From: Aeromicrobium marinum DSM 15272
GTDB taxonomy: Bacteria > Actinomycetota > Actinomycetes > Propionibacteriales > Nocardioidaceae
Direction: 5' to 3'
Assembly (NCBI RefSeq): GCF_000160775.2
Contig: NZ_CM001024.1
Span: 1,414,113-1,478,112, forward strand
DNA: 64,000 nucleotides
Numbering within the stretch: the first letter of the stretch is position 1; every line of letters starts with the position of its first letter. The notes beneath the pieces are model-generated. The model did not search any database. It had not been told where the DNA came from and saw nothing but the letters and a program-made list of their open reading frames with translations. Both the position numbers and the translations under genes were made by a program. This document shows positions 3,951 to 53,406 of the stretch, one piece after another.

Positions 3951-5233
3951 TCGGTGTTTTTCGAAGCAGCCTCGAGCACACTGGCCCATTGATCGCCCGA
4001 GCGCTCCATCTGAGCACGCGCGACGTGGGACACGACGCCAACGTTGACGCCGTTGCCAAGTTGCTTGTAGGTGAGTGCATCCGGCTGACCAGGGAAATCG
4101 AACCAGTCCGGCAGCCCTTGCAGACGGGCCGCCTCGCGAGGAGTGATGCGGCGAAGAGGCTTGCCGAGGATCGTCGTCTGGGTGATGGCGACCAGGGCAG
4201 GTACGTAGGTCGGCCGCTTGACGCGGATGCCGGACGGGCGGAAGTGCATGATGCAGTCCTCTAGGGAAGCAGAATCCTGCGCCTGCCACTCGAACTTCCG
4301 GCGCGACGCAGGAAGGTCTGCCAGGTCGTCAAACTCTTCCAACCAGGGGTCGAGGATGGCTGAGTGCTCCGTGTAGAACTCGGCGTTCTTGCGGAGGAAG
4401 TTCTTCTTCCATGCAGGAAGTTCCGGTGAGATCACCAGATCGTCGGAATGGATGAAGGCATCTACCCACACCGGGAACCCCGGGAGCTTCTCCACGCCGG
4501 CAGCACGAAGCCGCAGTACGAACTCGGACCAGACGTGGACCCAGTGCTGCTCGGTGGCCGTCAGGTCGTAGTTGGCGCGATCGGCGATCTCGCTCTCGTC
4601 CTGGAGGATGTCCGACAGCTTCCAGTCCTGCGGGTTCCAGCCCTCGATCGGTCGGTTCACCACCACTGGCTCGATCTCGTCCTGAGCACGATCATCGCCG
4701 ACGTAGGTGCCGACGATGAAGACGCGTTCACGGATCTGCGGACTGCCACCCATCCACGGCGGGAGCAGATGCGGGGAGAAGACGGCCGGGGTCGAACTGA
4801 CTTGGTAGCCGAGATCCCTCAGCGAGCTGATGATGACGTCCCACTCGTGGGTGTGGCGGGGCCCAGCAATATTGCGGACGTTCTCGAGCAGCACGATCGA
4901 CGGACGGTGCTCCTCCAGGATCCGCAGGATGTTCCAGAAGAGAGTGCCGCGCGCCTCGTCCATGCCTCGCTGGAAGCCAGACTTGGAGAACGGCTGACAC
5001 GGGAACCCCGCAGCCAGGACGTCGTGCGGCGGAACCTTCACGACCGGATCGGTCTCCGGCACGATGTCGCCAGCCACCGGCATGTTCCAGTTGTGCTGAT
5101 AGATCTTCGCGGCTGCCTCATCGATCTCAGACGCGTAGACGCACTCTCCGCCCAGCTCGGAGAGGGCGGCGTGGAACCCGCCGATCCCGGCGAACAAGTC
5201 GATGAAGGTGAATCTCGGAGTGCTCGAGCTCAT
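3947..5233 (-). CDS. dcm: DNA (cytosine-5-)-methyltransferase
   Basis: A 428-residue C5-methyltransferase, modification partner of the restriction system. Motif I DLFAGIGG (12-19) binds AdoMet; motif IV FPCQPFS (77-83) carries the catalytic Cys79; motif VI ENV is at 117-119; motif VIII reads QIRERVF; motif IX is RITPREAARLQGLPD and motif X GNGVNVGVV. The long segment between VIII and IX is the target recognition region, so specificity is not inferable. The stop shares bases 3947-3950 (CTAG) with the convergent vsr stop. A -10-like TAGGCT lies six bases upstream of the ATG. Confidence 0.95.
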   Translation of the reverse strand: MSSSTPRFTFIDLFAGIGGFHAALSELGGECVYASEIDEAAAKIYQHNWNMPVAGDIVPETDPVVKVPPHDVLAAGFPCQPFSKSGFQRGMDEARGTLFWNILRILEEHRPSIVLLENVRNIAGPRHTHEWDVIISSLRDLGYQVSSTPAVFSPHLLPPWMGGSPQIRERVFIVGTYVGDDRAQDEIEPVVVNRPIEGWNPQDWKLSDILQDESEIADRANYDLTATEQHWVHVWSEFVLRLRAAGVEKLPGFPVWVDAFIHSDDLVISPELPAWKKNFLRKNAEFYTEHSAILDPWLEEFDDLADLPASRRKFEWQAQDSASLEDCIMHFRPSGIRVKRPTYVPALVAITQTTILGKPLRRITPREAARLQGLPDWFDFPGQPDALTYKQLGNGVNVGVVSHVARAQMERSGDQWASVLEAASKNTD

Positions 5234-5239
5234 GTTCGA

Positions 5240-5245
5240 AGCCTA
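5240..5245 (-). promoter_or_regulatory. -10 box of the methyltransferase promoter (leaderless)
   Basis: On the minus strand TAGGCT is followed by six bases and the ATG at 5233. No ribosome site precedes the ATG, which fits a leaderless message. Confidence 0.5.
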
Positions 5246-5278
5246 TTCGCGCGGTCGGACATCGGACGGGATTGAACG

Positions 5279-5318
5279 CGTGTCGGCGGACGGTCCGGGA
5301 GGACCGTCCGCCGACACG
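5279..5318. terminator. Perfect 18-bp stem-loop between dcm and nrdJ
   Basis: An 18-bp perfect inverted repeat (5279-5296 with 5301-5318) with a 4-base loop GGGA lies 7 bases after the nrdJ stop. It is a strong terminator for nrdJ and shields the restriction genes from read-through. There is no clear U-tract, as is common in actinobacteria. Confidence 0.75.
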
Positions 5319-5324
5319 GCTCGC

Positions 5325-8237
5325 TCAGCTGCAGCCGCTGGTGCTGCCGCAGCCCTCGCACACGTGGCAGGAGCCGGCGGGGCGCATCTTGGTGCCGCAG
5401 GTCATGCACAGCGGGGAGTCGACGGCGGCGCCGGTGATGGCCTCCATCAGCTCGGCGCTGGTGTGGGCGGTGGCGGGGGCGGGCTTGGCGCCTGCGTCGC
5501 CTCGGACTTCGTCCTCACGGTCGCTTCGCTCCCTGGCGACCGCGGAGTCGTCGCCTCGGGCTTCGCCCTCACGGTCGCTGCGCTCCCTGGCGACCACATC
5601 GTCGGAGATGAGCTCGGCTGCCGTGGTGCCGTCGGAGATCGTCGGCTGGTGGCTGCCCGTGTCGAGGTAGCGCTGACGCTCCTCGGCCGAGTGGATGCCG
5701 AGCGCCGAACGGGCCTCGAAGTCCAGGTAGTCCAGGGCCAGGCGACGGAACGTGTAGTCCATGATCGACTGGCTCATGCGGACGTCCGGGTCGTCGGTCA
5801 GACCGGCCGGCTCGAACTTCATGTTGGTGAACTTCTGCACGAAGGTCTCGAGCGGCACGCCGTACTGCAACGAGATGCTGATCGCGATGCTGAAGGCGTC
5901 CATCATGCCGGCGAGGGTCGAGCCCTGCTTGCCCAGCTTGAGGAAGATCTCGCCGAGCGAACCGTCCTCGAGCGCGCCCGAGGTCATGTAGCCCTTGGCG
6001 CCGCCCACGGCGAACGATGTGGTGATGGCCTGGCGCGAGCGCGGCATCTTGCGGCGGATCGGCTTCTCGACGATGACTTCCTTGACCTCGACCTTGGTGT
6101 CACCCGAGGACTTGGCCTCCTTGCCGTCGCTGAGCGGCTGACCGACCTTGCAGTTGTCGCGGTACACCGCGAGCGCCTTGAGGCCGAGCTTCCAGCCCTG
6201 GAAGTAGACGTCCTTGATCTCCTCGACCGAGGCGGACTCCGGCAGGTTGACCGTCTTGCTGATCGCGCCGGACAGGAACGGCTGGCACGCGGCCATCATG
6301 TGCACGTGGCCCATCGGCTTGATGGAGCGCTGGCCCATCGCGGTGTCGAAGACCTCGTAGTGCTCGGTCTTCAGGCCCGGCGCGTCGACCACGTGACCGT
6401 TCTCGGCGATGTACTCGACGATCGCCTCGATGGTCTCGCCGGCGTAGCCGAGCTTCTTCAGGGCCGCGGGGATCGTCTGGTTGACGATCTGCATCGAGCC
6501 GCCACCGACGAGCTTCTTGAACTTGACCAGGCTGAAGTCCGGCTCGATGCCCGTGGTGTCGCAGTCCATCATGAAGCCGATGGTGCCCGTGGGCGCCAGC
6601 ACCGACGCCTGGCTGTTGCGCCAGCCGTTCTTCTCGCCGATCTTGAGGTTGTCGGCCCACTGCTTGGCGGCCTCACGGTGCACCGCGATGTCCATCGAGT
6701 GCAGCGTGCGGATCTCGTCGTTGGCGGCCTGGTGCTTGCGCATGACCCGCTCGTGCGCCGACGCGTTCTGCGCGAAGCCGTCGTACGGGCCGACCACACC
6801 GGCCAGCTCGGCCGAACGGCGGAAAGACGTGCCGGTCATCAGCGAGGTGATGGCGCCGGCCAGCGCGCGGCCACCGTCGGAGTCGTACGCCAGGCCCGAC
6901 GCCATGAGCAGCGCGCCGAGGTTGGCGAAGCCGATGCCCAGCTGGCGGTAGGCGCGCGTGGTGTCGCCGATCGCCTCGGTCGGGAAGTCGGCGAAGCAGA
7001 TGCTGATGTCCATCGCGGTGATGATGAACTCGACGGCCTTGACGAAGGTCTCGGTGTCGAACGAGCCGTCGTCCTTGAGGAACTTCAGCAGGTTCAGGCT
7101 GGCCAGGTTGCAGCTGGAGTTGTCCAGGTGCATGTACTCGCTGCACGGGTTGGACGCGGTGATGCGGCCGGCCTCGGGCGAGGTGTGCCAGTCGTTGATC
7201 GTGCCGTCGTACTGGATGCCCGGGTCGGCGCACGCCCACGCGGCCTCGGCGATGTCGTTCCACAGGCTGCGGGCGTCGACGGTCTCGATGACCTCACCGG
7301 TCATCCGGCCGCGCAGGCCGAACTCGGTGCCGTCCTCGACCGCGCGCATGAACTCGTCGTTGACGCGGATCGAGTTGTTGGCGTTCTGGTACTGCACGCT
7401 GGTGATGTCGGCGCCGCCGAGATCCATGTCGTAGCCGGCGTCGCGCAGGACGCGGATCTTGTCCTCCTCGCGCGCCTTGGTGGCCACGAACTCGGCGATG
7501 TCGGGGTGGTCGACGTCGAGCACGACCATCTTGGCCGCGCGACGCGTGGCGCCGCCGGACTTGATGGTGCCCGCCGACGCGTCCGCACCGCGCATGAACG
7601 AGACCGGACCGGACGCCGTGCCGCCGGAGGAGCGGAGCAGCTCCTTGGACGAACGGATGCGCGACAGGTTGAGGCCCGCACCGGAGCCACCCTTGAAGAT
7701 CAGACCCTCCTCGCGGTACCAGTTGAGGATCGAGTCCATCGAGTCGTCGACCGCGAGGATGAAGCACGCCGACACCTGCTGCGGGCTGGACGTGCCCACG
7801 TTGAACCACACCGGGCTGTTGAAGCTGAACACCTGGTGCAGCAGCATGTGGGTCAGCTCGTGCTCGAACACCTCGGCGTCGGCCTCGGTGGTGAAGTAGC
7901 CGTGGTCGCGGCCGGCCTGGGTGTAGGTGAGCACGACCCGGTCGAGCAGCTGGCGCAGGCTCTGCTCACGCTCGGGGGTGCCGACGGCGCCGCGGAAGTA
8001 CTTGGTGGTGACGATCGTGGAGGCGTTGACGCTCCAGAAGTCGGGGAACTCCACGCCACGCTGCTCGAAGACGTGCTCGCCGGTCTTCCAGTTGGTCTGC
8101 ACGACGTCGCGGCGCTCCCACGTGACGGCGTCGTACGGGTGCACGCCCTCGGTGGTGTAGACGCGCTGCAGGGACAGACCCTTGCGTGCGCCTGCCTTGC
8201 GGGAGGACCCGGTGGGTCCGTTGACCGTTTCCGTCAT
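5325..8237 (-). CDS. nrdJ: Adenosylcobalamin-dependent ribonucleotide reductase (class II)
   Basis: A 970-residue class II reductase that makes deoxyribonucleotides without oxygen. Recognisable parts include FNSPVWFNVG, the substrate-site stretch NPCSEYMHLDNSSCNLASLN with a redox Cys, and APTGTIGFMMDCDTTGIEPDF. The C-terminus SPLCMTCGTKMRPAGSCHVC is the Cys-rich thiol/zinc tail. AGGAG precedes the ATG. Residues about 881-914, in the linker before that tail, hold two copies of VARERSDRE(G/D)E-RGD, encoded by a DNA repeat also found between genes at 12259-12555. It follows nrdR by 70 bases, so the two probably form one operon under NrdR. Confidence 0.95.
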   Translation of the reverse strand: MTETVNGPTGSSRKAGARKGLSLQRVYTTEGVHPYDAVTWERRDVVQTNWKTGEHVFEQRGVEFPDFWSVNASTIVTTKYFRGAVGTPEREQSLRQLLDRVVLTYTQAGRDHGYFTTEADAEVFEHELTHMLLHQVFSFNSPVWFNVGTSSPQQVSACFILAVDDSMDSILNWYREEGLIFKGGSGAGLNLSRIRSSKELLRSSGGTASGPVSFMRGADASAGTIKSGGATRRAAKMVVLDVDHPDIAEFVATKAREEDKIRVLRDAGYDMDLGGADITSVQYQNANNSIRVNDEFMRAVEDGTEFGLRGRMTGEVIETVDARSLWNDIAEAAWACADPGIQYDGTINDWHTSPEAGRITASNPCSEYMHLDNSSCNLASLNLLKFLKDDGSFDTETFVKAVEFIITAMDISICFADFPTEAIGDTTRAYRQLGIGFANLGALLMASGLAYDSDGGRALAGAITSLMTGTSFRRSAELAGVVGPYDGFAQNASAHERVMRKHQAANDEIRTLHSMDIAVHREAAKQWADNLKIGEKNGWRNSQASVLAPTGTIGFMMDCDTTGIEPDFSLVKFKKLVGGGSMQIVNQTIPAALKKLGYAGETIEAIVEYIAENGHVVDAPGLKTEHYEVFDTAMGQRSIKPMGHVHMMAACQPFLSGAISKTVNLPESASVEEIKDVYFQGWKLGLKALAVYRDNCKVGQPLSDGKEAKSSGDTKVEVKEVIVEKPIRRKMPRSRQAITTSFAVGGAKGYMTSGALEDGSLGEIFLKLGKQGSTLAGMMDAFSIAISISLQYGVPLETFVQKFTNMKFEPAGLTDDPDVRMSQSIMDYTFRRLALDYLDFEARSALGIHSAEERQRYLDTGSHQPTISDGTTAAELISDDVVARERSDREGEARGDDSAVARERSDREDEVRGDAGAKPAPATAHTSAELMEAITGAAVDSPLCMTCGTKMRPAGSCHVCEGCGSTSGCS
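5496..5595 (-). repeat. Two in-frame copies of palindromic element Q inside nrdJ
   Basis: Copies at 5496-5541 and 5550-5595 (46 bp each, 54-bp period, thus 18 codons) begin GTCGCC and end GGCGACC. They match the intergenic Q elements at 12259, 12384 and 12509, apart from a deletion of about 7 bp. Translated on the nrdJ strand they give VARERSDREGEARGD and VARERSDREDEVRGD. Confidence 0.85.
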
Positions 8238-8307
8238 GGAACTGCTCCTGTGTGATGTGGCGTGCGGTGGTGGCGGTGCTGTGTGCGTTCTGGGTGGTGC
8301 GGGGTGT

Positions 8308-8808
8308 TCAGTTCTGGTGCTGATCGCCCGTGCGGGCGGTGTGCTCGGCCAGCTCGCCGTCGGCGGCGCTGGCCATGAGGGTGGCGATCTCGGCGGCGAA
8401 GTCGTCGGCGGAGTCGAACGCCTTGTAGACGCTCGCGAACCGCAGGTAGGCGACCTCGTCGAGTGCCTTGAGCGGCTCGAGGATGGCCAGACCGACCTGG
8501 TGCGCCTCGATCTCGGGGCAGCCCGAGGCCCGCAGCGTGTGCTCGACGGACTGACCGAGGCGGGCGAGGTCGTCGGTGGAGACCGGACGGCCCTTGCATG
8601 CCTTGGCGACGCCGGCGATGGCCTTGTCGCGCACGAACGGCTCGGTGGTGCCGGACCGCTTGAGGACCATGAGCTGCATCTGCTCGGTGGTGGTGAACCG
8701 CTTCTCGCACGCCGAGCAGGCCCGGCGGCGACGGATGGATCCGCCCTCGTCGGCGACCCGGCTGTCGAGCACCCGGGTGTCGGTGTGCTGGCAGAAGGGA
8801 CAGTGCAT
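8308..8808 (-). CDS. nrdR: Transcriptional repressor NrdR
   Basis: A 166-residue ATP/dATP-sensing repressor of ribonucleotide reductase genes. The N-terminal zinc ribbon is [15 protein letters not shown] ... [15 protein letters not shown] (Cys pairs near 3/6 and 31/34), followed by the ATP-cone domain ([19 protein letters not shown]). The start at 8808 is fixed by the zinc ribbon and an AGGAGG at 8815-8820; longer in-frame starts would add an unrelated tail. It is upstream of nrdJ in the same direction and has NrdR-box-like sites in its promoter, so autoregulation is likely. Confidence 0.95.
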
Positions 8809-8912
8809 GGCGGACCTCCTCGAGGCGGTGGTGAGGTGGATGAAACTGTGGGAAACCTGTGCGTACCCGGTGGACGACCGCGGATTCCTGTGGAGTACCG
8901 CCGTGCACCTGT

Positions 8913-8956
8913 GCACTAGATGTGGAGAACTACATGCATGTAAGTACTACATGTAG
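8913..8956 (-). promoter_or_regulatory. Paired NrdR boxes upstream of nrdR-nrdJ
   Basis: On the minus strand ACATCTAGTG (plus 8914-8923) and ACATGTAGTA (plus 8945-8954) repeat with the same core 31 bp apart, three helical turns, the spacing typical of NrdR box pairs. A third palindrome ACATGCATGT (8932-8941) lies between them. Right half-sites match the actinobacterial consensus better than left ones. Confidence 0.6.
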
Positions 8957-9074
8957 GGGCAACCGTACGCTGCCGGTCGGCCCGGTGCAAGCACTCTGCC
9001 AGCCTGATCTGACAGTTCTGCCGGTTCGGCGCATCAGTGCAGGTCAGGGGCTGTACGTGACCCGCGACACGCAG

Positions 9075-9080
9075 CATGAT
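9075..9080 (+). promoter_or_regulatory. -10-like box before the VOC gene
   Basis: CATGAT, then six bases, then ATG at 9087. This fits the leaderless layout seen across the window. Confidence 0.3.
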
Positions 9081-9086
9081 GAGCCC

Positions 9087-9509
9087 ATGAGCATGAACCT
9101 GAACCCCTACCTGCACCTGCACGACACGGCCCGTGAGGCGCTGGAGTTCTACCGCGACGCCCTCGGCGGGTCTCTGGAGCTCCTGACGTTCGGCGACTCC
9201 GGCATGAGCGACGATCCGGCCATCGCCGACCGGATCATGCACGGTCAGCTGACCACCGACGCCGGCCTGGTGCTGATGGCCTCCGACACTCCCCCGGGCA
9301 TGCCCGATCCGACCGCCGGCACGACGGTCTCGGTGTGTCTCAGCACCACCGATCCCGCCAACGACCTGAGCGGCACCTTCGCCGCCCTGGCCGAGGGCGG
9401 CGAGGTCAAGGAACCGTTCCACGTCGCGCCGTGGGGCGACCCGTTCGGAATCCTCGACGACAAGTTCGGCATCACCTGGTTGGTCAACGGAGCCGCAGCA
9501 CAGGAGTGA
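9087..9509 (+). CDS. VOC superfamily protein (PhnB/glyoxalase-like)
   Basis: A 140-residue PhnB-like member of the vicinal oxygen chelate fold. NPYLHLHDTAREALEFYRDALGG is the family's N-terminal beta-alpha signature, and the second half (HVAPWGDPFGILDDKFGITW) gives the characteristic end with the metal-site region. The start at 9087 is chosen because upstream codons run into the NrdR operator. Members bind small molecules or metals; some confer drug resistance, but no substrate can be assigned. It stands alone between nrdR and a lipoprotein gene. Confidence 0.85.
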   Translation: MSMNLNPYLHLHDTAREALEFYRDALGGSLELLTFGDSGMSDDPAIADRIMHGQLTTDAGLVLMASDTPPGMPDPTAGTTVSVCLSTTDPANDLSGTFAALAEGGEVKEPFHVAPWGDPFGILDDKFGITWLVNGAAAQE

Positions 9510-9514
9510 GCGCG

Positions 9515-9557
9515 TAGGCTCGCGCCACCGCAGCATCCATCGTTCGGGGGAACCATG
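9515..9557 (+). promoter_or_regulatory. Shared promoter-leader of a lipoprotein gene (copy 1)
   Basis: TAGGCT (9515-9520) is followed by a 34-base leader ending CGTTCGGGGGAACCATG. GTTC-GGGG-GAAC can form a small hairpin that overlaps the ribosome site. The same ending and the same 34-base distance occur at 16352-16394. Confidence 0.55.
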
Positions 9558-10394
9558 AACCGCCTCTCCATCGCCGTCGCTGTCGCCTGCTTGGTCCTGA
9601 CGGCAGCCGCCTGCTCGTCGGACGACGAACCCGCCGGCGTCCCATCCTCCGGCGGGGCCGACGACCTCGCGGCGGCGAGCGGGCCCTTCGCCGAGGCGGT
9701 CGCAGAGCTGCGGGACCTACCGGAGGTCGATCCGACCAGCGTCGACCCGCCCGTGCCGCCGGCAGACGTCGATCCGACGGTGTTCCTCGCGAACAGCCAG
9801 TGGGCGCTGGACCTCGCGGTCGACGCCCACGACGAGCGGTGGTGGGACTCGCCCCCGAACGGGGACGTGCTGCCCCAGCACCTCGCAGCCGGCGTGCCGC
9901 CGGCAATGCAGAACTACATCGCCGGGTTCGAGCAGTTCGACTCCGATCTTCCGTACACGCAGGAGTTCGTCGACCACTTCGCCGCCGACACCCAACCGAC
10001 CGGGCCGATGCGGATCGTCAGCGCCCGCTGGGCGGCCGAGCCCACCGAGTTCGCCACCATGGCACGCCTCGAGACGGTCGCCGTGGTCGACCTGGGCGGG
10101 GCCGACGCAGCGCGTCCCGTGGTGATCGTGCGGAGCGCGGCGATCGGCACCACCGAGCTGTTCGGTGGTCTCGGCTCCTACTCGTGGGGATTCACAACCG
10201 ACGTCTACGGCCACGACCCCTGCGTCCTGGCGCGGGACGGCGTCATCACCCCGGCCGAGGACCCCGATGGCGACGTCACCCTCGTCACCGCGCTGATCGA
10301 GCGCCTCACGTCCACCGAGGAGCTGGAGCCGCGCGAGGTCGACAACCGCCCGCTGGAGGAGTCGGTGGCCGAGGCCTGCGGGAGTTCGTCCTGA
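9555..10394 (+). CDS. Predicted secreted lipoprotein
   Basis: A 279-residue protein with a lipoprotein signal: a short basic start, a hydrophobic core and lipobox LTAAAC with Cys20, followed by an Asp/Ser/Gly-rich linker. The mature part is acidic with no recognised domain. It would be lipidated by Lgt and cleaved by LspA, both encoded in this window. The gene has the same leader as the lipoprotein gene at 16392. Function unknown. Confidence 0.8.
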   Translation: MNRLSIAVAVACLVLTAAACSSDDEPAGVPSSGGADDLAAASGPFAEAVAELRDLPEVDPTSVDPPVPPADVDPTVFLANSQWALDLAVDAHDERWWDSPPNGDVLPQHLAAGVPPAMQNYIAGFEQFDSDLPYTQEFVDHFAADTQPTGPMRIVSARWAAEPTEFATMARLETVAVVDLGGADAARPVVIVRSAAIGTTELFGGLGSYSWGFTTDVYGHDPCVLARDGVITPAEDPDGDVTLVTALIERLTSTEELEPREVDNRPLEESVAEACGSSS

Positions 10395-10476
10395 GCCTGC
10401 TGCCCTGCCCCCTGAGGCTGGTACATCTTCGGCACGATCTCGCGCTTCGCTGATTTGCGTCGTCCGAAGTGGGTAG

Positions 10477-10482
10477 TACGTT
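10477..10482 (+). promoter_or_regulatory. -10 box of dps (leaderless)
   Basis: TACGTT followed by six bases and the dps ATG at 10489. No ribosome site is visible. Confidence 0.45.
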
Positions 10483-10488
10483 CGAACT

Positions 10489-11058
10489 ATGACTACTTCT
10501 CCCCGTTTCACCGTTCCCGGTCTCAGCCAGGCTGAGGGCGAGAAGGTCGCGGGCATCCTGCAGGAGCGCCTGCACGCCCTCAACGACCTGGCTCTCACCC
10601 TCAAGCACGTCCACTGGAATGTCGTGGGTCCCCACTTCATCGCCGTGCACGAGATGATCGACCCGCAGGTCGAGGAGGTGCGCGGTTTCGTCGACGAGAC
10701 GGCCGAGCGCATCGCCACCCTCGGGTCTCCCCCGCTGGGCACCCCCGGTTCCATCGTGGCCGGCCGCAGCTGGGACGACTACTCGATCGCCCGCGGCACC
10801 ACCAATGAACACCTCGGCGCCCTCGAGATGGTCTACACCCAGCTCATCGGGGACCACCGCAAGGCGCAGGCGGCCACCGCCGACCTCGACCCGATCACCG
10901 AGGACCTGCTCATCGCGCAGATCAGCAGCCTCGAGCTGTTCCAGTGGTTCATCCGCGCCCACCTCGAGAGCACCACCGGTGGCCTGTCCACCGACGGTGC
11001 CGAGAGCGAGCAGGCTGCCGCCGACGCCGCGGGTGAAGCGGCCGACGTCACCGACTGA
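10489..11058 (+). CDS. dps: Dps family DNA-protection ferritin
   Basis: A 189-residue four-helix Dps protein. It oxidises Fe(II) with peroxide, stores iron in a dodecamer and protects DNA in stress. The ferroxidase signature is HVHWNVVGPHFIAVHEMID ... VRGFVDETAER. The C-terminal tail after about residue 165 is Ala/Glu/Asp-rich and acidic rather than Lys-rich, so DNA binding through that tail is unlikely. A strong terminator follows directly at 11073. Confidence 0.93.
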   Translation: MTTSPRFTVPGLSQAEGEKVAGILQERLHALNDLALTLKHVHWNVVGPHFIAVHEMIDPQVEEVRGFVDETAERIATLGSPPLGTPGSIVAGRSWDDYSIARGTTNEHLGALEMVYTQLIGDHRKAQAATADLDPITEDLLIAQISSLELFQWFIRAHLESTTGGLSTDGAESEQAAADAAGEAADVTD

Positions 11059-11072
11059 CCCACCTCATGCTC

Positions 11073-11108
11073 GGAAGCCCGCCCCCTCACGCAGGGTGGC
11101 GGGCTTCC
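11073..11108. terminator. Terminator between dps and the lipase gene
   Basis: An 11-bp stem, GGAAGCCCGCC at 11073-11083 paired with 11098-11108, lies between convergent genes and can serve both. Confidence 0.85.
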
Positions 11109-11121
11109 GTACGTGGAGGCA

Positions 11122-12126
11122 CTACCGGGCGTAGTCGCGCAGCTCGGGCTCGGCCGGGACGGTCTCTGCGCCGATCGTGTTCTTCGCCGTGACCCCCAGC
11201 GCCGACACGACGTCGAGGCCGAAGGTGAGCAGGTTGACCGACGGCATGGTCGGCCGCAAGCAGGTCGCCCGCGACACCCGGTCGAGCTGCGCGGGACCCG
11301 GGTTCGTCAACGCGTCGATGCCGATCAGCCAGGCCGCGTTGTCGTAGGCCATGCCGAAGTGCTCCACGATCTGCAGGGGGCACAGGTCCTGCACCATCGT
11401 GTTCGTCACGTTCGGCGCCGGCTCCAGGAACGACGGCGTCGGCGGGGCGACGATCTCGTCGTAGCGGGTGCCGATGACCGTGTAGTCGATGCCCGGAAAC
11501 GTCTCGGGGCCGTCGTTGAGCGCGGCGAGGAAGTTCGACCCGGCACTCTGCTGCCAGTTCGCCGCCGAGCAGCCGCCCTGGATCAGGCACAGGCCCACCC
11601 CGGACGTCGAGCCGTGGTTGGAGCTCGACAGGCCGACGTAGTCGTCGACCATCGCGCGGGTGTCGGGCCAGTACTTCAGCGCCCACCGGCCCACCATGCC
11701 GCCCTGGCTGTGGCCGACAATGCTGATCGGCCGGCCGGCGCGGGCGCGCATCGTGCGGATCGCGTGCACCACGTACTCGGCCGACACCTGGATGTCGCCG
11801 GTGGCGCCGTTCGGCGAGTCCAGCAGGCAGTAGGCGCGCCCGGCGGACTTCATGGCCTTGGCCCAGTTCCACGACCAGTTGGCCTTCGACGTCGAGGTGG
11901 TGCCGTGCAGGAACAGCACGGGAGCCTGCGATCCGGCAGCGAGGTTGCCGTGACAGCTCATCGCCGCGGCGGCCGTCGCCGCGGGCACGGTGAGCGGCGG
12001 GGTCCCGTCGGAGGACTCCGAGCCGACGGCGGCCGTCGGTGCGGCCAGCGTCGCGGCGACCAGCAGGCCGGCTGCGGCCGCCCACCGGCGCGTGGGACGG
12101 GGGCGGATCGGGGTGCTGCGCGTCAT
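11122..12126 (-). CDS. Secreted lipase / alpha-beta hydrolase
   Basis: A 334-residue hydrolase with a signal peptide (basic start RSTPIRPRPTRRW, then an Ala/Leu-rich core ending near AVGSES). VLFLHGT is the oxyanion-loop region and GHSQGG the nucleophile elbow with the catalytic Ser, so it belongs to the lipase/esterase (CALB-like, LIP2) group. Several Cys residues in the mature part (for example LCLIQGGCS) may form disulfides, consistent with export. The start at 12126 has GGAGG five bases upstream. Its promoter side faces the repeat array at 12202-12646. Confidence 0.85.
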   Translation of the reverse strand: MTRSTPIRPRPTRRWAAAAGLLVAATLAAPTAAVGSESSDGTPPLTVPAATAAAAMSCHGNLAAGSQAPVLFLHGTTSTSKANWSWNWAKAMKSAGRAYCLLDSPNGATGDIQVSAEYVVHAIRTMRARAGRPISIVGHSQGGMVGRWALKYWPDTRAMVDDYVGLSSSNHGSTSGVGLCLIQGGCSAANWQQSAGSNFLAALNDGPETFPGIDYTVIGTRYDEIVAPPTPSFLEPAPNVTNTMVQDLCPLQIVEHFGMAYDNAAWLIGIDALTNPGPAQLDRVSRATCLRPTMPSVNLLTFGLDVVSALGVTAKNTIGAETVPAEPELRDYAR

Positions 12127-12201
12127 GAGGTCCTCCGGGTCGACGATCACCTGATCAACGACCACCCGTGACCGGGGTCACGTGAGCGGAGTCGCCCTGA
12201 C

Positions 12202-12555
12202 GTTCGCCAGCCCGAGGAACGAGGGCGTGAGCGCAGCGAGGCAAACCTTGCGTAAGTGGGTCGCCTCGGGCTCGTTCCTCGCCCTCACGGTCGCTCCGCT
12301 CCCTGGCGACCGCACGGGTTGCGTTCGCCAGTCCGCGAGGAACGAGCGGACGTGAGCGCAGCGAGGCGAACCCCAGGTGAGTGGGTCGCCTCGGGCTCGT
12401 TCCTCGCCCTCACGGTCGCTCCGCTCCCTGGCGACCGCGATGCATCCGTTCGCCAGTCCGCGAGGAACGAGCGGACGTGAGCGCAGCGAGGCGAACCTCG
12501 CGTGAGTGGGTCGCCTCGGGCTCCGCCGTCACGGTCGCTGCGCTCCCTGGCGACC
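12202..12555. repeat. Array of alternating palindromic elements P and Q (125-bp period)
   Basis: P elements (12202-12246 degenerate, 12323-12371, 12448-12496) run from GTTCGCC to GGCGAAC. Q elements (12259-12311, 12384-12436, 12509-12555) run from GGTCGCC to GGCGACC. Successive P or Q copies are 125 bp apart. All are imperfect palindromes containing GAGGAACGAGC-type cores. This array fills most of the 557-bp gap between the lipase and amidotransferase genes. Confidence 0.9.
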
Positions 12556-12650
12556 AAGGGTGTGGTTTCGAGGCTGCTCGTTCCTCGCCCTGGCGACCAG
12601 GGGTGTGGTTTCGAGGCTGCTCGTTCCTCGCAGCACCTCAACCACCGAGG
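12556..12650. repeat. Element B copies, one hybrid with element Q
   Basis: GTGGTTTCGAGGCTGCTCG occurs twice (from about 12562 and 12605). The first copy breaks off into the end of a Q element (CCCTGGCGACC, 12588-12598). The second continues to CACCTCAACCACC (12634-12646), the complete element B also found at 21001-21150. Confidence 0.8.
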
Positions 12651-12683
12651 CTGCGCGAGCTTGCGAGGGTGCGCGGGGAAGGG

Positions 12684-13367
12684 TCAGTGGACCGTCAGGT
12701 AGCGCAGGGCGGCGTCGACGAGTGCCGTGGCGGCCGTCCGCGAGGTGTGCTCGAACTCCTTCGCCTGACGCACCAACGCCGCCGGGTCGACGCCCGCGGC
12801 TCGGACCTTGGCCGCGGAGTCCTCGACCCAGCGGGCGTAGGTCTCCGGCGTCACCTCGGGATGGAACTGCCAGGCGATGACCCGCGCACCACGAGTCTCG
12901 TCGACGAAGCACTGCGGACCGTGCCACGTGGACCCCAGGACCCGGGCGGTCTGCGGCGGCGCGAACGTGTCGTGGTGGAACTGACCCCACGGCCCGCGCG
13001 GGCACAGCTCGTCGTCGAGGGTGTCGATGCGCTGCCAGCCCAGTTCGGGAGCGTCCATCGCCCACGACGTGCCGCCGAGGGCCCGGGCGATCAGCTGAGC
13101 TCCGTAGCAGATGCCCATCACCGGCACCCCCGCTGCGAGCGACGCGCGCACCAGCCGTGACTCGGCCACGACCGGGTGCACGTGGGCCGGATCATGGGCG
13201 GACCGCTCGGAACCGAGCAGGAGCAGCAGGTCGCCGGGCACCCACTCGGCCGGCTCGGGCAGGCCGTCGCGGTCGAGGTCGACGAGATCCGCGCCGAGGG
13301 CCCGCAACCTCGCCGTGACGTGGCCGCCCTCACGATCGGTGGCGTCGGAGACGACGTGGACCAGCAT
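12684..13367 (-). CDS. Class I glutamine amidotransferase family protein
   Basis: A 227-residue GATase1 protein: GICYGAQLIA carries the nucleophile Cys, WQFHPEV the catalytic His and Glu. It is a stand-alone GuaA-like glutaminase domain of the kind in which the ammonia acceptor is unknown; some relatives hydrolyse gamma-glutamyl compounds. The start MLVHVVSD at 13367 is chosen because GAGACT plus six bases precedes it (leaderless); a start 15 codons earlier would run into that box. Confidence 0.85.
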   Translation of the reverse strand: MLVHVVSDATDREGGHVTARLRALGADLVDLDRDGLPEPAEWVPGDLLLLLGSERSAHDPAHVHPVVAESRLVRASLAAGVPVMGICYGAQLIARALGGTSWAMDAPELGWQRIDTLDDELCPRGPWGQFHHDTFAPPQTARVLGSTWHGPQCFVDETRGARVIAWQFHPEVTPETYARWVEDSAAKVRAAGVDPAALVRQAKEFEHTSRTAATALVDAALRYLTVH

Positions 13368-20252: not shown

Positions 20253-20990
20253 ATGAGCGACGAGCAGAACACCCCCGGAACCGACGCCGCGGTCACCGAG
20301 CTCCCCGACGGTCCCGCCGACGCCAACGGGCTCACCGCGCGGCAGCGCCGGGTCCTGGAGTTCCTGCGCGACGAGGTCGAGAAGCGGGGCTACCCGCCGA
20401 GCATGCGCGAGATCGGGCAGGCGGTGGGGCTGGTCAGCACCTCGTCGGTGTCGCACCAGCTCAAGCAGCTGGAGAAGATGGGGCACATCCGCCGCGATCC
20501 GTTCCGCCCTCGCGCCATGGAGATCTTCCTGCCCGACGGCGGCGCGGCACGCCATGCCGTCAGCAGCGCCTCCGCGTCCTCGTACGACGAGACCGGGATC
20601 GACGACGCCCACCCCGAGGCGACCTACGTCCCGATCGTGGGACGCATCGCCGCCGGTGGTCCGATCCTCGCCGAGGAGCGCGTCGAGGAGATCTTCCCGC
20701 TGCCGAAGTCGCTCGTGGGCGACGGCACGCTGTTCCTGCTCGAGGTGTCCGGCGACTCCATGATCGACGCGGCCATCTGCAGCGGTGACTACGTCGTCAT
20801 CCGCCAGCAGCCGGTCGCCGAGAACGGCGAGATCGTCGCCGCCATGCTCGACGGTGAGGCCACCGTCAAGACGTTCCAGCGCAAGGACGGTCAGGTGTGG
20901 CTGCTGCCGCACAACGACGACTACTCCCCCATCGACGGCACCCACGCCACGATCCTCGGCAAGGTCACCGCGGTCCTGCGCCGCGTGTAG
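20253..20990 (+). CDS. lexA: SOS repressor LexA
   Basis: A 245-residue repressor of the SOS response. The N-terminal winged helix ([20 protein letters not shown] ... [19 protein letters not shown]) binds SOS boxes. The self-cleavage bond is Ala-Gly in GRIAAGGP; catalytic Ser lies in VSGDSM and Lys in ATVKTF. ATG 20253 is chosen over GTG 20247 because of the leaderless -10 spacing. The operator at 20206 indicates autoregulation, and the same boxes control the nearby LysM inhibitor. Confidence 0.97.
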
Positions 20991-20998
20991 GCCGGTCG

Positions 20999-21150
20999 GG
21001 GGTTTCGAGGCTCGCAGGCTCGCACCTCAACCACCGAGTGGTCGCGTCGGTGGTTTCGAGGCTCGCACGCTCGCACCTCAACCACCGAGTGGTCGGCCTG
21101 CTCGGTGGTTGAGGTGGCGCGAGGAACGAGCGCCCTCGAAACCACAAACC
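20999..21150. repeat. Three copies of palindromic element B
   Basis: Two direct copies (21001-21036, 21049-21086; GGTTTCGAGG ... CACCTCAACCACC) and one inverted copy (about 21103-21146; GGTGGTTGAGGTG ... CCTCGAAACCAC). They fill the gap between convergent lexA and galE and may act as a terminator. Related copies lie at 12605-12646. Confidence 0.85.
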
Positions 21151-21158
21151 TCCAGCGG

Positions 21159-52139: not shown

Positions 52140-52193
52140 GCGGACGATTCTCCCACCCCGCCCGCTCGCGACGCGCTCGTCCCCGTCCGCCTC

Positions 52194-52260
52194 CCCGCTG
52201 GGAGTGACGTTTCGGCCCCAGATCAGTCGATTTCAGGGCCGAAACGTCACTCCCAGCGGG
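52194..52260. repeat. 67-bp palindrome R1, left of the nuclease cassette
   Basis: A perfect 25-bp inverted repeat (52194-52218 with 52236-52260, starting CCCGCTGGGAGTGACG) with a 17-base loop. It lies nine bases beyond the stop of the nuclease-like gene. A near-identical copy is at 53296-53362. Confidence 0.95.
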
Positions 52261-52269
52261 AAGGCGAGG

Positions 52270-53244
52270 TCAGCGCCAGCGACGGCCGGGCTCCCAGTCG
52301 CCCCACCACACGGGTTCGTCGAGCGTCCAGCTCGCTGCACGGGTCCGTCGGGCCCGCATCCACGCGGTGACCAGACGCCCGGCGAGCGACCACCGGTCAC
52401 GGTGATCGAGCGCCGACACCCGGGCCACGACCAGACCGTGGTCCTCGAATCTCTCCTCCCGGGCGTTGTCCTCCGCGTGCGGAACTGCCTCGCGGTGGTG
52501 GGCACCGTCGCTCTCGATCACCAGACCGGACTCGGGCTCGAGCAGGTCGGCGACCCCGAGCAGCTCGCCACCCGGTCCGAACAACGGTGCGTTCACCCTC
52601 AGGGCAGGAATCCCCGCGTCGATCCGAGCGACGAGTCTGGTCCGGGTCTCCCACGGACTCGCCGACCGACAGGAGGCCCAGCCGAGGGCGCGCCGCGCCT
52701 GGACGATGCCTCGGGTCTTGCGGTGCGACGCGACGACCGCGTCCACCCGGTCGAGCGTGGTGCGGGGCGCTCCGTGGGTCGTGCTCAGCACCATGTCAAG
52801 GGCGACCACCGCCTCGCGGAAGTCGCGGGCGGTCCGCATCTCGTCGTACACCGCTCGGGCCATCGTCGATACCGGCCACCCGTCAAGGTCGAGGAACTCG
52901 TCGGGGTACAAGCCTGCCCGACACGGTTCGACTCCGCGGGTCGGCCGCAGCTGCGCACCCGCCGGGCAGTGCACCAGCACCCGTCGGACGGTCCGGTCGT
53001 GTCCTGAACCGGTGAACCACTCGTTGCCCTGGATCCGCAGCGACGCCCATCCGCCGATCGCGCACGCACCGGTGAGGAGCGGCCGCACGGCGGCGATCCG
53101 CTCGATCGTGGGATCGCCCCCTGAGCCTGCCGGTCGGACGACCCCGTGGGCCTGCCGTTGCCAGGCCGGTCCCCGCAGGGCCTTGGCCGACCACCCCGCC
53201 GCCAGCGCGTCGGACGTCCTCATCGATGCGGTCCACGGATCCAT
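52270..53244 (-). CDS. DUF559-type PD-(D/E)XK nuclease-like protein with AbiEi-like N-terminus
   Basis: A 324-residue protein. Its first 90 residues (helical, with WSAKALRGPAWQRQAHGVVR) resemble the winged-helix start of AbiEi-type antitoxins. The last 110 residues match Vsr-like DUF559 domains: SPWETRTRLVARIDAGIP, LLGVADLLEPESGLVIESDG, then HHREAVPHAEDN; Asp, Glu and Asp residues fit a nuclease core, but the usual Lys is not obvious. It stands alone between two 67-bp palindromes. ATG 53244 follows GACCAT by six bases. Function unknown. Confidence 0.75.
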   Translation of the reverse strand: MDPWTASMRTSDALAAGWSAKALRGPAWQRQAHGVVRPAGSGGDPTIERIAAVRPLLTGACAIGGWASLRIQGNEWFTGSGHDRTVRRVLVHCPAGAQLRPTRGVEPCRAGLYPDEFLDLDGWPVSTMARAVYDEMRTARDFREAVVALDMVLSTTHGAPRTTLDRVDAVVASHRKTRGIVQARRALGWASCRSASPWETRTRLVARIDAGIPALRVNAPLFGPGGELLGVADLLEPESGLVIESDGAHHREAVPHAEDNAREERFEDHGLVVARVSALDHRDRWSLAGRLVTAWMRARRTRAASWTLDEPVWWGDWEPGRRWR

Positions 53245-53295
53245 CCCGCGATGGTCGCCGAGCCGGCCGTCTCCGGCCCGTTCCTGTCCACAGCC

Positions 53296-53362
53296 CCCGC
53301 TGGGAGTGACGTTTCGGCCCCGGATCGGCCGATTTCAGGGCAGAAACGTCACTCCCAGCGGG
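53296..53362. repeat. 67-bp palindrome R2, right of the nuclease cassette
   Basis: Same arms as R1 (25 bp, one mismatch in the right arm) with a 17-base loop differing at three places, in the same orientation. Confidence 0.95.
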
Positions 53363-53406
53363 GAGGTGGGGTCAGCGGGAGGTGGGGTCAGCGGGAGGTG
53401 GGGTCA
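53358..53406. repeat. Three tandem 16-17-bp units ending in the rluD stop
   Basis: GCGGGAGGTGGGGTCA occurs at 53375-53390 and 53391-53406, and as a 17-bp variant at 53358-53374. The last unit provides the TGA stop of rluD. A related tail follows R1 at 52258-52272. Confidence 0.85.

Follow-up and report, generated by a model that had tools for sequence, protein, structure and literature searches.

Dispersed palindromic repeats in the NrdJ linker of Aeromicrobium marinum and its relatives

The window analysed here is a 64,000-nucleotide stretch of the Aeromicrobium marinum DSM 15272 genome (NCBI RefSeq assembly GCF_000160775.2, contig NZ_CM001024.1, positions 1,414,113 to 1,478,112 of the forward strand), in which the minus-strand open reading frame (ORF) at 5325..8237 is nrdJ, coding for a class II (B12-dependent) ribonucleotide reductase (RNR) of 970 aa, and contains two copies of a short palindromic DNA element, designated Q. 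The assignment of the ORF is based on its translation and on matches to NCBIfam NF005122 (class II B12-dependent RNR; 1578.6 bits) and Pfam PF02867/PF08471/PF12637, with the domains Ribonuc_red_lgC and TSCPD (residues 750-835) recognised in the product; the B12-dependent RNR barrel, the TSCPD domain and a terminal cysteine-rich tail characterise it as a class II NrdJ. The tail, comprising codons 944-970 (CMTCG...CHVCEGCGSTSGCS; 5328..5408, minus strand), was delimited from the translation and from 36 aligned NrdJ proteins, which show no variation at C944, C947, C957, C960, C963 and C969. PMC5704485 and PMC9669993 describe a redox-active cysteine domain at the C-terminus of class II enzymes; the former treats the cysteine-rich C-terminus as ordered, so that the parallel with the flexible tails of class I is limited. 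After the TSCPD domain, between the words TAAEL and AHTSAEL, the congener alignment and Pfam boundaries define a hypervariable linker of residues 877-923 (5469..5609, minus strand). The AlphaFold2 predicted local distance difference test score (pLDDT) is below 50 over residues 867-931, in a model that is poor as a whole (mean pLDDT 56.6) and weak in much of the core as well.

Both Q copies lie in this linker, following the TSCPD domain and ahead of the cysteine tail (944-969). Each is 46 bp long and reads GTCGCC...GGCGACC on the plus strand; their starts are 54 bp apart, and the nrdJ reading frame stays open across both. The copy nearer the 5' end of nrdJ (5550..5595, plus strand) is predicted to yield, on the minus strand, the peptide VARERSDREGEARGD (residues 882-896), and the copy nearer the 3' end (5496..5541, plus strand) the peptide VARERSDREDEVRGD (residues 900-914). 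Of this, a preliminary description of the DNA had claimed two 46-bp copies in the NrdJ linker before the Cys tail, in frame and with a 54-bp period, which was confirmed from the sequence. The copy at 5550-5595 is identical at 46/46 positions to ten intergenic copies in the same genome, its form being one of the two commonest there (11 identical 46-mers among 89 parsed copies, itself included). Between this copy and that at 5496-5541 there are three differences; two of them face each other in a hairpin stem (GGGC/GCCC becoming GGAC/GTCC), so that the palindrome is kept.

The distribution of Q in its own genome was determined with a 22-base core, GTCGCTNCGCTCCCTGGCGACC, allowing up to 3 mismatches in the window and up to 2 genome-wide. 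The window contains 5 matches (2 in nrdJ and 3 at 12290-12555), compared with none in 100 shuffles, and the single-contig genome of 3,079,740 bases contains 91, compared with none for the reversed core. Genes were called with a home-made ORF caller using a codon score rather than taken from a standard annotation, and by these calls the window is about 89% coding. Counting Q in and out of genes, as the preliminary description had proposed, gave 87 of the 91 cores outside ORF calls: 37 lie between convergent, 45 between tandem and 3 between divergent genes, with 2 unplaced, and 82 of the 85 placed cores outside called genes are accordingly between convergent or tandem genes. The NrdJ copies account for two of the four cores within ORF calls. 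The remaining two are questionable and were excluded from the count of insertions, one being a site with 2 mismatches in an ORF that we take to be a TetR-type N-terminus, and the other belonging, beyond a stretch of 100 N, to a subtilase ORF with an apparently out-of-frame tail. At the coding fraction of the window, finding 2 of 90 copies in coding DNA would have a binomial probability near 1e-82, a value that ignores the clustering of copies. Q thus has a strong intergenic bias.

Among the 89 of 91 copies that could be parsed, 62 have the 46-bp form and 27 a 52-bp form, and the structure combines an outer stem (GGTCGCC/GGCGACC) with a GGGC-TTC-GCCC hairpin. Between neighbouring cores, 54 spacings fall below 1 kb, and 42 of these measure 106-180 bp. 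In the window the intergenic copies form a cluster on the plus strand, with two of the 52-bp form (12260..12311 and 12385..12436) and one of the 46-bp form (12510..12555), and alternate with three inverted relatives of the form GTTCGCC...GGC(G/A)AAC (family D5; 12202..12496, plus strand, at about 12202-12246, 12323-12371 and 12448-12496). The preliminary description had matched the nrdJ copies to Q in non-coding DNA near 12259-12555, and these copies indeed lie between two minus-strand genes. Other repeats were also seen in the window: a third kind, GTGGTTTCGAGGCTGCTCGTTCCTCGC...CTCAACCAC, has direct and inverted copies at 12561-12650 and 20984-21151 and resembles the VEPVET and GGTCGAGTAG kinds of congeners described below, and an 83-bp palindrome unit with 31-nt arms that are 97% complementary (GGGAGTGACGTTTCGGCCC...) occurs in two copies, 92% alike, at 52188-52275 and 53295-53377. 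Around nrdJ itself, a long hairpin (GTCGGCGGACGGTCC / GGACCGTCCGCCGAC) seen by eye at 5283-5318, directly after the stop codon, is probably the nrdJ terminator, and a coding sequence upstream of the gene (8320-8900, minus strand) resembles by eye NrdR, the RNR regulator.

We then compared 49 Aeromicrobium genomes, in which G000 denotes the genome of A. marinum itself and the other G numbers its congeners. Q was matched in nine of them (G000, 91; G020, 44; G048, 14; G006, 11; G002, 8; G041, 2; and 1 each in G013, G036 and G038), a shorter Q pattern giving 48 in G020, 14 in G048, 14 in G006 and 9 in G002. Beyond the genus, 13 of 245 family genomes had one site each (up to 1 mismatch), and the multiplication of Q is confined to one Aeromicrobium clade. 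The 85 Q sites of G020, G048, G006 and G002 (30 fetched loci) are intergenic throughout, save one in the NrdJ of G048. Searches for the REP-associated tyrosine transposase (RAYT; Y1_Tnp, PF01797), in which REP stands for repetitive extragenic palindrome, gave no match in the 49 genomes and control matches in 5 of 14; other transposases were not searched for. Mobilisation of Q by a RAYT was rejected given this absence of PF01797 from 49/49 genomes.

A NrdJ match was obtained in 45 of the 49 genomes and 41 linkers were readable, of which the 39 from complete genes, that of A. marinum included, were counted; the two left out, L070 (G034) and L071 (G028), come from fragmentary genes and by eye have none of the repeat kinds. 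Twelve of the 39 linkers contain a recognisable palindromic repeat, belonging to six partly related kinds, and 27 contain none. Q is present in G000 (two copies) and G048 (one copy), and a diverged relative of Q in G006 and G020; GTTGAGCCTGTCGAAAC (peptide VEPVET) is found in G019, G041 and G047, CCTAGCGACGAAGTCGCGGGAG (peptide PSDEVAG) in G012, G022 and G044, a stem variant of the PSDEVAG repeat in G046, and a GGTCGAGTAG...GTATCGAGACC repeat in G010. EPVE- or APVE-like words in G008, G021, G024 and L070, which could be eroded VEPVET, were scored as being without a repeat. For 9 of the 12 repeat-bearing linkers the same kind of repeat was found elsewhere in that genome. The VEPVET repeat occurs in 10 of the 49 genomes and the PSDEVAG repeat in 7, three in each case having a NrdJ copy, and a segment chosen solely from the linker of G046 gave 20 sites in G046 (NrdJ included) and none in four other genomes. 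In the 12 linkers with a repeat the length averages 50.3 residues (40-62), whereas the 27 repeat-free ones measure 27-45, a difference with a Mann-Whitney p of about 1e-5 that is uncorrected for kinship. An alignment of NrdJ from relatives had been suggested in the preliminary description, on the grounds that differing copy numbers would reveal insertion and that a peptide conserved in distant families would instead mark an ancestral linker. The congener linkers hold two (A. marinum), one (G048) or no copies of Q, and the Q peptide is absent from all 80 named NrdJ loci searched, five of them from Aeromicrobium, so that the result which would have spoken for an ancestral linker did not arise and the earlier interpretation is supported.

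The history of the linker was followed on a nrdJ tree of 40 rows (39 congeners and one outgroup) built with the linker removed and with G046 scored as empty. At least nine changes of repeat state are required on this tree. A 15-species clade holds 11 of the 12 repeat-bearing species, with G000 as its first branch and G048 nested within it beside the repeat-free G002, and the two are parted on the tree by species without repeats or with other repeats. Moreover, the 46-bp element is letter-identical between G000 and G048, whereas their nrdJ regions share about 89% identity. From this separation on the tree, together with an identical element amid nrdJ sequences that have diverged, the Q insertions in the two NrdJ look independent, as judged from the sequences. 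The turnover extends to different kinds of repeat: in one four-species clade the linkers contain VEPVET (G019 and G041), PSDEVAG (G022) and GGTCGAGTAG...GAGACC (G010).

Repeats of this sort are encountered in other Nocardioidaceae and in other proteins. Several linkers among the 80 named NrdJ loci, from Nocardioidaceae beyond the genus, contain VEPVET- or VELVET-like peptides, and seven genomes of the family contained 9, 36, 142, 3, 60, 3 and 13 sites of the VEPVET type; as these genomes were picked for such a linker peptide, the counts establish recurrence and give no rate. The corresponding numbers were 1 in Kribbella, 0 in Jiangella and 0 in Janibacter. Outside NrdJ, ORF calls contain 30 of 56 fetched VEPVET copies (a set that leaves out those of G035, G036, G038 and G046) and 2 of 16 of the PSDEVAG kind, and NrdJ as the only decorated gene was rejected for VEPVET on account of these 30 copies. 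Proteins with such peptides, identified by eye, include DnaX, NuoG, NuoF, CarA and GrpE. In DnaX-like proteins, linker peptides of the PSDEVAG kind in G041 and of the VEPVET kind in G008 (L209 1799-1820; L216 1768-1787) make DnaX, as identified by eye, a second case of a DNA synthesis protein with different repeats. NuoG-like N-termini of three congeners (L182, L189 and L206) start with MTVDEVSTGSTG, which is the other strand of the VEPVET repeat, and an acyl-CoA dehydrogenase of G046 (L270 1253-2344) contains two in-frame copies of a local repeat between its domains. Tolerance of repeats is therefore general, and what is distinctive is that one NrdJ linker has been taken by so many kinds.

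We consider it likely that these observations are best explained by dispersed palindromes that occasionally enter genes and survive where their product is an elastic hydrophilic linker. Q would be a short, structured, dispersed DNA repeat that normally resides beyond the 3' ends of genes, and such repeats would land now and then within genes, where the surviving insertions would be those that leave the frame intact, introduce no stop and yield a tolerated peptide. The NrdJ linker tethering the cysteine tail may be such a tolerant site, occupied on separate occasions, in different species, by several repeats that are unrelated or only distantly akin; presumably, it would need only length and tolerance for the cysteine tail to reach the active site. 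We infer both the act of insertion itself and its neutrality for the enzyme. Several points weigh against this explanation. Insertion is seen across species only, without an empty site of the same species showing the target letters, and the AlphaFold2 model is too poor to prove disorder of the linker. The repeat kinds were picked after the linkers had been viewed, and the scan for a species' own repeat among the other 24 species was confined to G046. The linker variant of G006 and G020 has no other copy in either genome (up to 2 mismatches), and the G010 linker repeat has a single further copy, which adjoins nrdJ. G002, with 8-9 Q sites in its genome, has none in NrdJ. Finally, VEPVET is common in other proteins, so that NrdJ is not special for that kind.

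Alternative explanations were weighed against the same evidence. Chance resemblance or slippage in an old linker, without insertion, would find favourable ground in a linker that is variable and of low complexity, but it is refuted by identity and distribution, that is, by the 46/46 match to ten intergenic copies and the lack of any core match in 100 shuffles, and its probability is negligible. A local DNA hot spot, by which the nrdJ locus would draw repeats through short-range spread of nearby intergenic copies via template switching or gene conversion, is hinted at by several loci: G048 has five Q copies (62-bp period) directly downstream of nrdJ in addition to that in the linker, the only other G010 copy lies 55 bp upstream of nrdJ, and in both G041 and G022 a VEPVET copy precedes the gene by about 50 bp. 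However, nrdJ of A. marinum has no flanking Q, the nearest cluster being about 4 kb off, the linker repeat of G022 differs in kind from the upstream one, and the array copies of G048 end with GGCGAAC while the linker copy ends with GGCGACC; we regard such a hot spot as rather unlikely. The hairpin might instead act as RNA in the nrdJ message, by stability or pausing, with the peptide as a by-product, as the compensatory change in one NrdJ copy would suggest. For the outer three stem pairs, 172 of 228 cells are paired in 76 short-class copies, exceeding the shuffles (mean, 144.7; max, 157), but the 30 long-class copies stay within them (47/90 versus 43.4, max 50), and the copies are related, so that shuffles overstate the signal; this test omitted 65 core matches failing a length filter, some of them repeated in overlapping loci. 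No Rfam family matched window positions 5000-13000 at E ≤1, and Q as a known RNA family was rejected on that basis. A role as RNA is accordingly held to be quite improbable.

The inserts could also be adaptive, the palindrome-derived peptides tuning the length or charge of the cysteine-tail linker and thereby dNTP (deoxynucleoside triphosphate) supply or mutation rate, with selection keeping the linker filled. This idea gains from the repeats in 12/39 linkers, from the presence of Q in no other verified gene of its own genome, and from the coding frame, which by eye has, for 6/6 kinds, the highest (four kinds) or joint highest (two kinds) Asp+Glu content among stop-free frames. In addition, PMC3733652 mentions REPs located in genes for replication and repair, which in many species are the only ones decorated, and speculates on mutators. 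It loses from the 27/39 linkers without a repeat, from peptides that vary in sequence and length, and from the other proteins bearing such peptides. A second RNR-like locus (25-27% identity) was found in 5 of the 12 repeat-bearing species (G000, G006, G046, G047 and G048) and in none of the other seven, so that NrdJ need not be the sole RNR in those five. On balance, an adaptive origin appears improbable. We are similarly doubtful of a reading in which the linker of NrdJ would serve Nocardioidaceae as a permanent landing pad for whichever repeat kind is active, the repeats being captured again and again for changing the reach and charge of the cysteine tail and hence dNTP supply; selfish DNA would then supply the material from which a DNA synthesis enzyme is tuned. 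The natural series of 0, 1 or 2 inserts and of several repeat kinds in related species offers a test, in one enzyme, of why repeats abound in DNA synthesis genes. It also cautions that linker words like VARERSDRE, VEPVET and PSDEVAG, when met in annotated proteins, can stem from repeat DNA instead of being conserved motifs.

Among known systems, bacterial interspersed mosaic elements (BIMEs) are REP pairs in alternating orientation, and the window cluster, in which Q alternates with an inverted relative, resembles them in arrangement; unlike BIMEs, the two NrdJ copies are direct repeats in tandem, with a 54-bp period and no inverted partner. As a candidate element of the type of miniature inverted-repeat transposable elements, Q has terminal inverted repeats, and a target-site duplication is unassignable as the linkers differ around the insert. 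The REPs of the GTAG and CGTC super-families (PMC3733652) are, like Q, short palindromes (20-40 bp, compared with 46-52 bp for Q) that are clustered and lie mostly between convergent or tandem genes, some copies being intragenic and many of those in DNA synthesis or repair genes. In contrast to them, Q has no constant end tag (of the 89/91 parsed copies, 11 begin with CGTC, a single one has GTAG adjoining its 3' end, and none has a tag upstream) and, unlike GTAG REPs, no RAYT in 49/49 genomes. Because constant end tags and the transposase are lacking, Q is not filed as a GTAG/CGTC REP.

A further likeness is to the Rickettsia palindromic elements (RPEs), which, as summarised in PMC3733652, are short dispersed palindromes found in frame inside proteins. 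The preliminary description had named Rickettsia alone, which is too narrow, as PMC3733652 records intragenic palindromes from several phyla, with many of them in genes for DNA synthesis and repair, and raises the question of whether such a pattern could be fortuitous; the present case conforms to it. The preliminary description knew of none in actinobacterial NrdJ, and no account of such turnover was found in the literature searched. A word search of the main text of PMC3733652 for 'actinobacteria', 'actinomyc', 'nrd' and 'ribonucleotide reductase' gave no match, and no paper on repeats in NrdJ, or on these repeats in Actinobacteria, was among the matches listed, where subscription literature is thinly covered. 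In-frame palindromic insertions are hereby extended to Actinobacteria and to ribonucleotide reductase. As with RPEs, the same repeat is found outside genes of the same genome (91 core sites), and the nrdJ copies lie in frame in a conserved gene, at a site that in relatives is free of them or taken by another repeat. Q is set apart from RPEs in several respects: it belongs to another phylum, it is otherwise intergenic, and a single linker has been struck by several kinds of repeat in related species.

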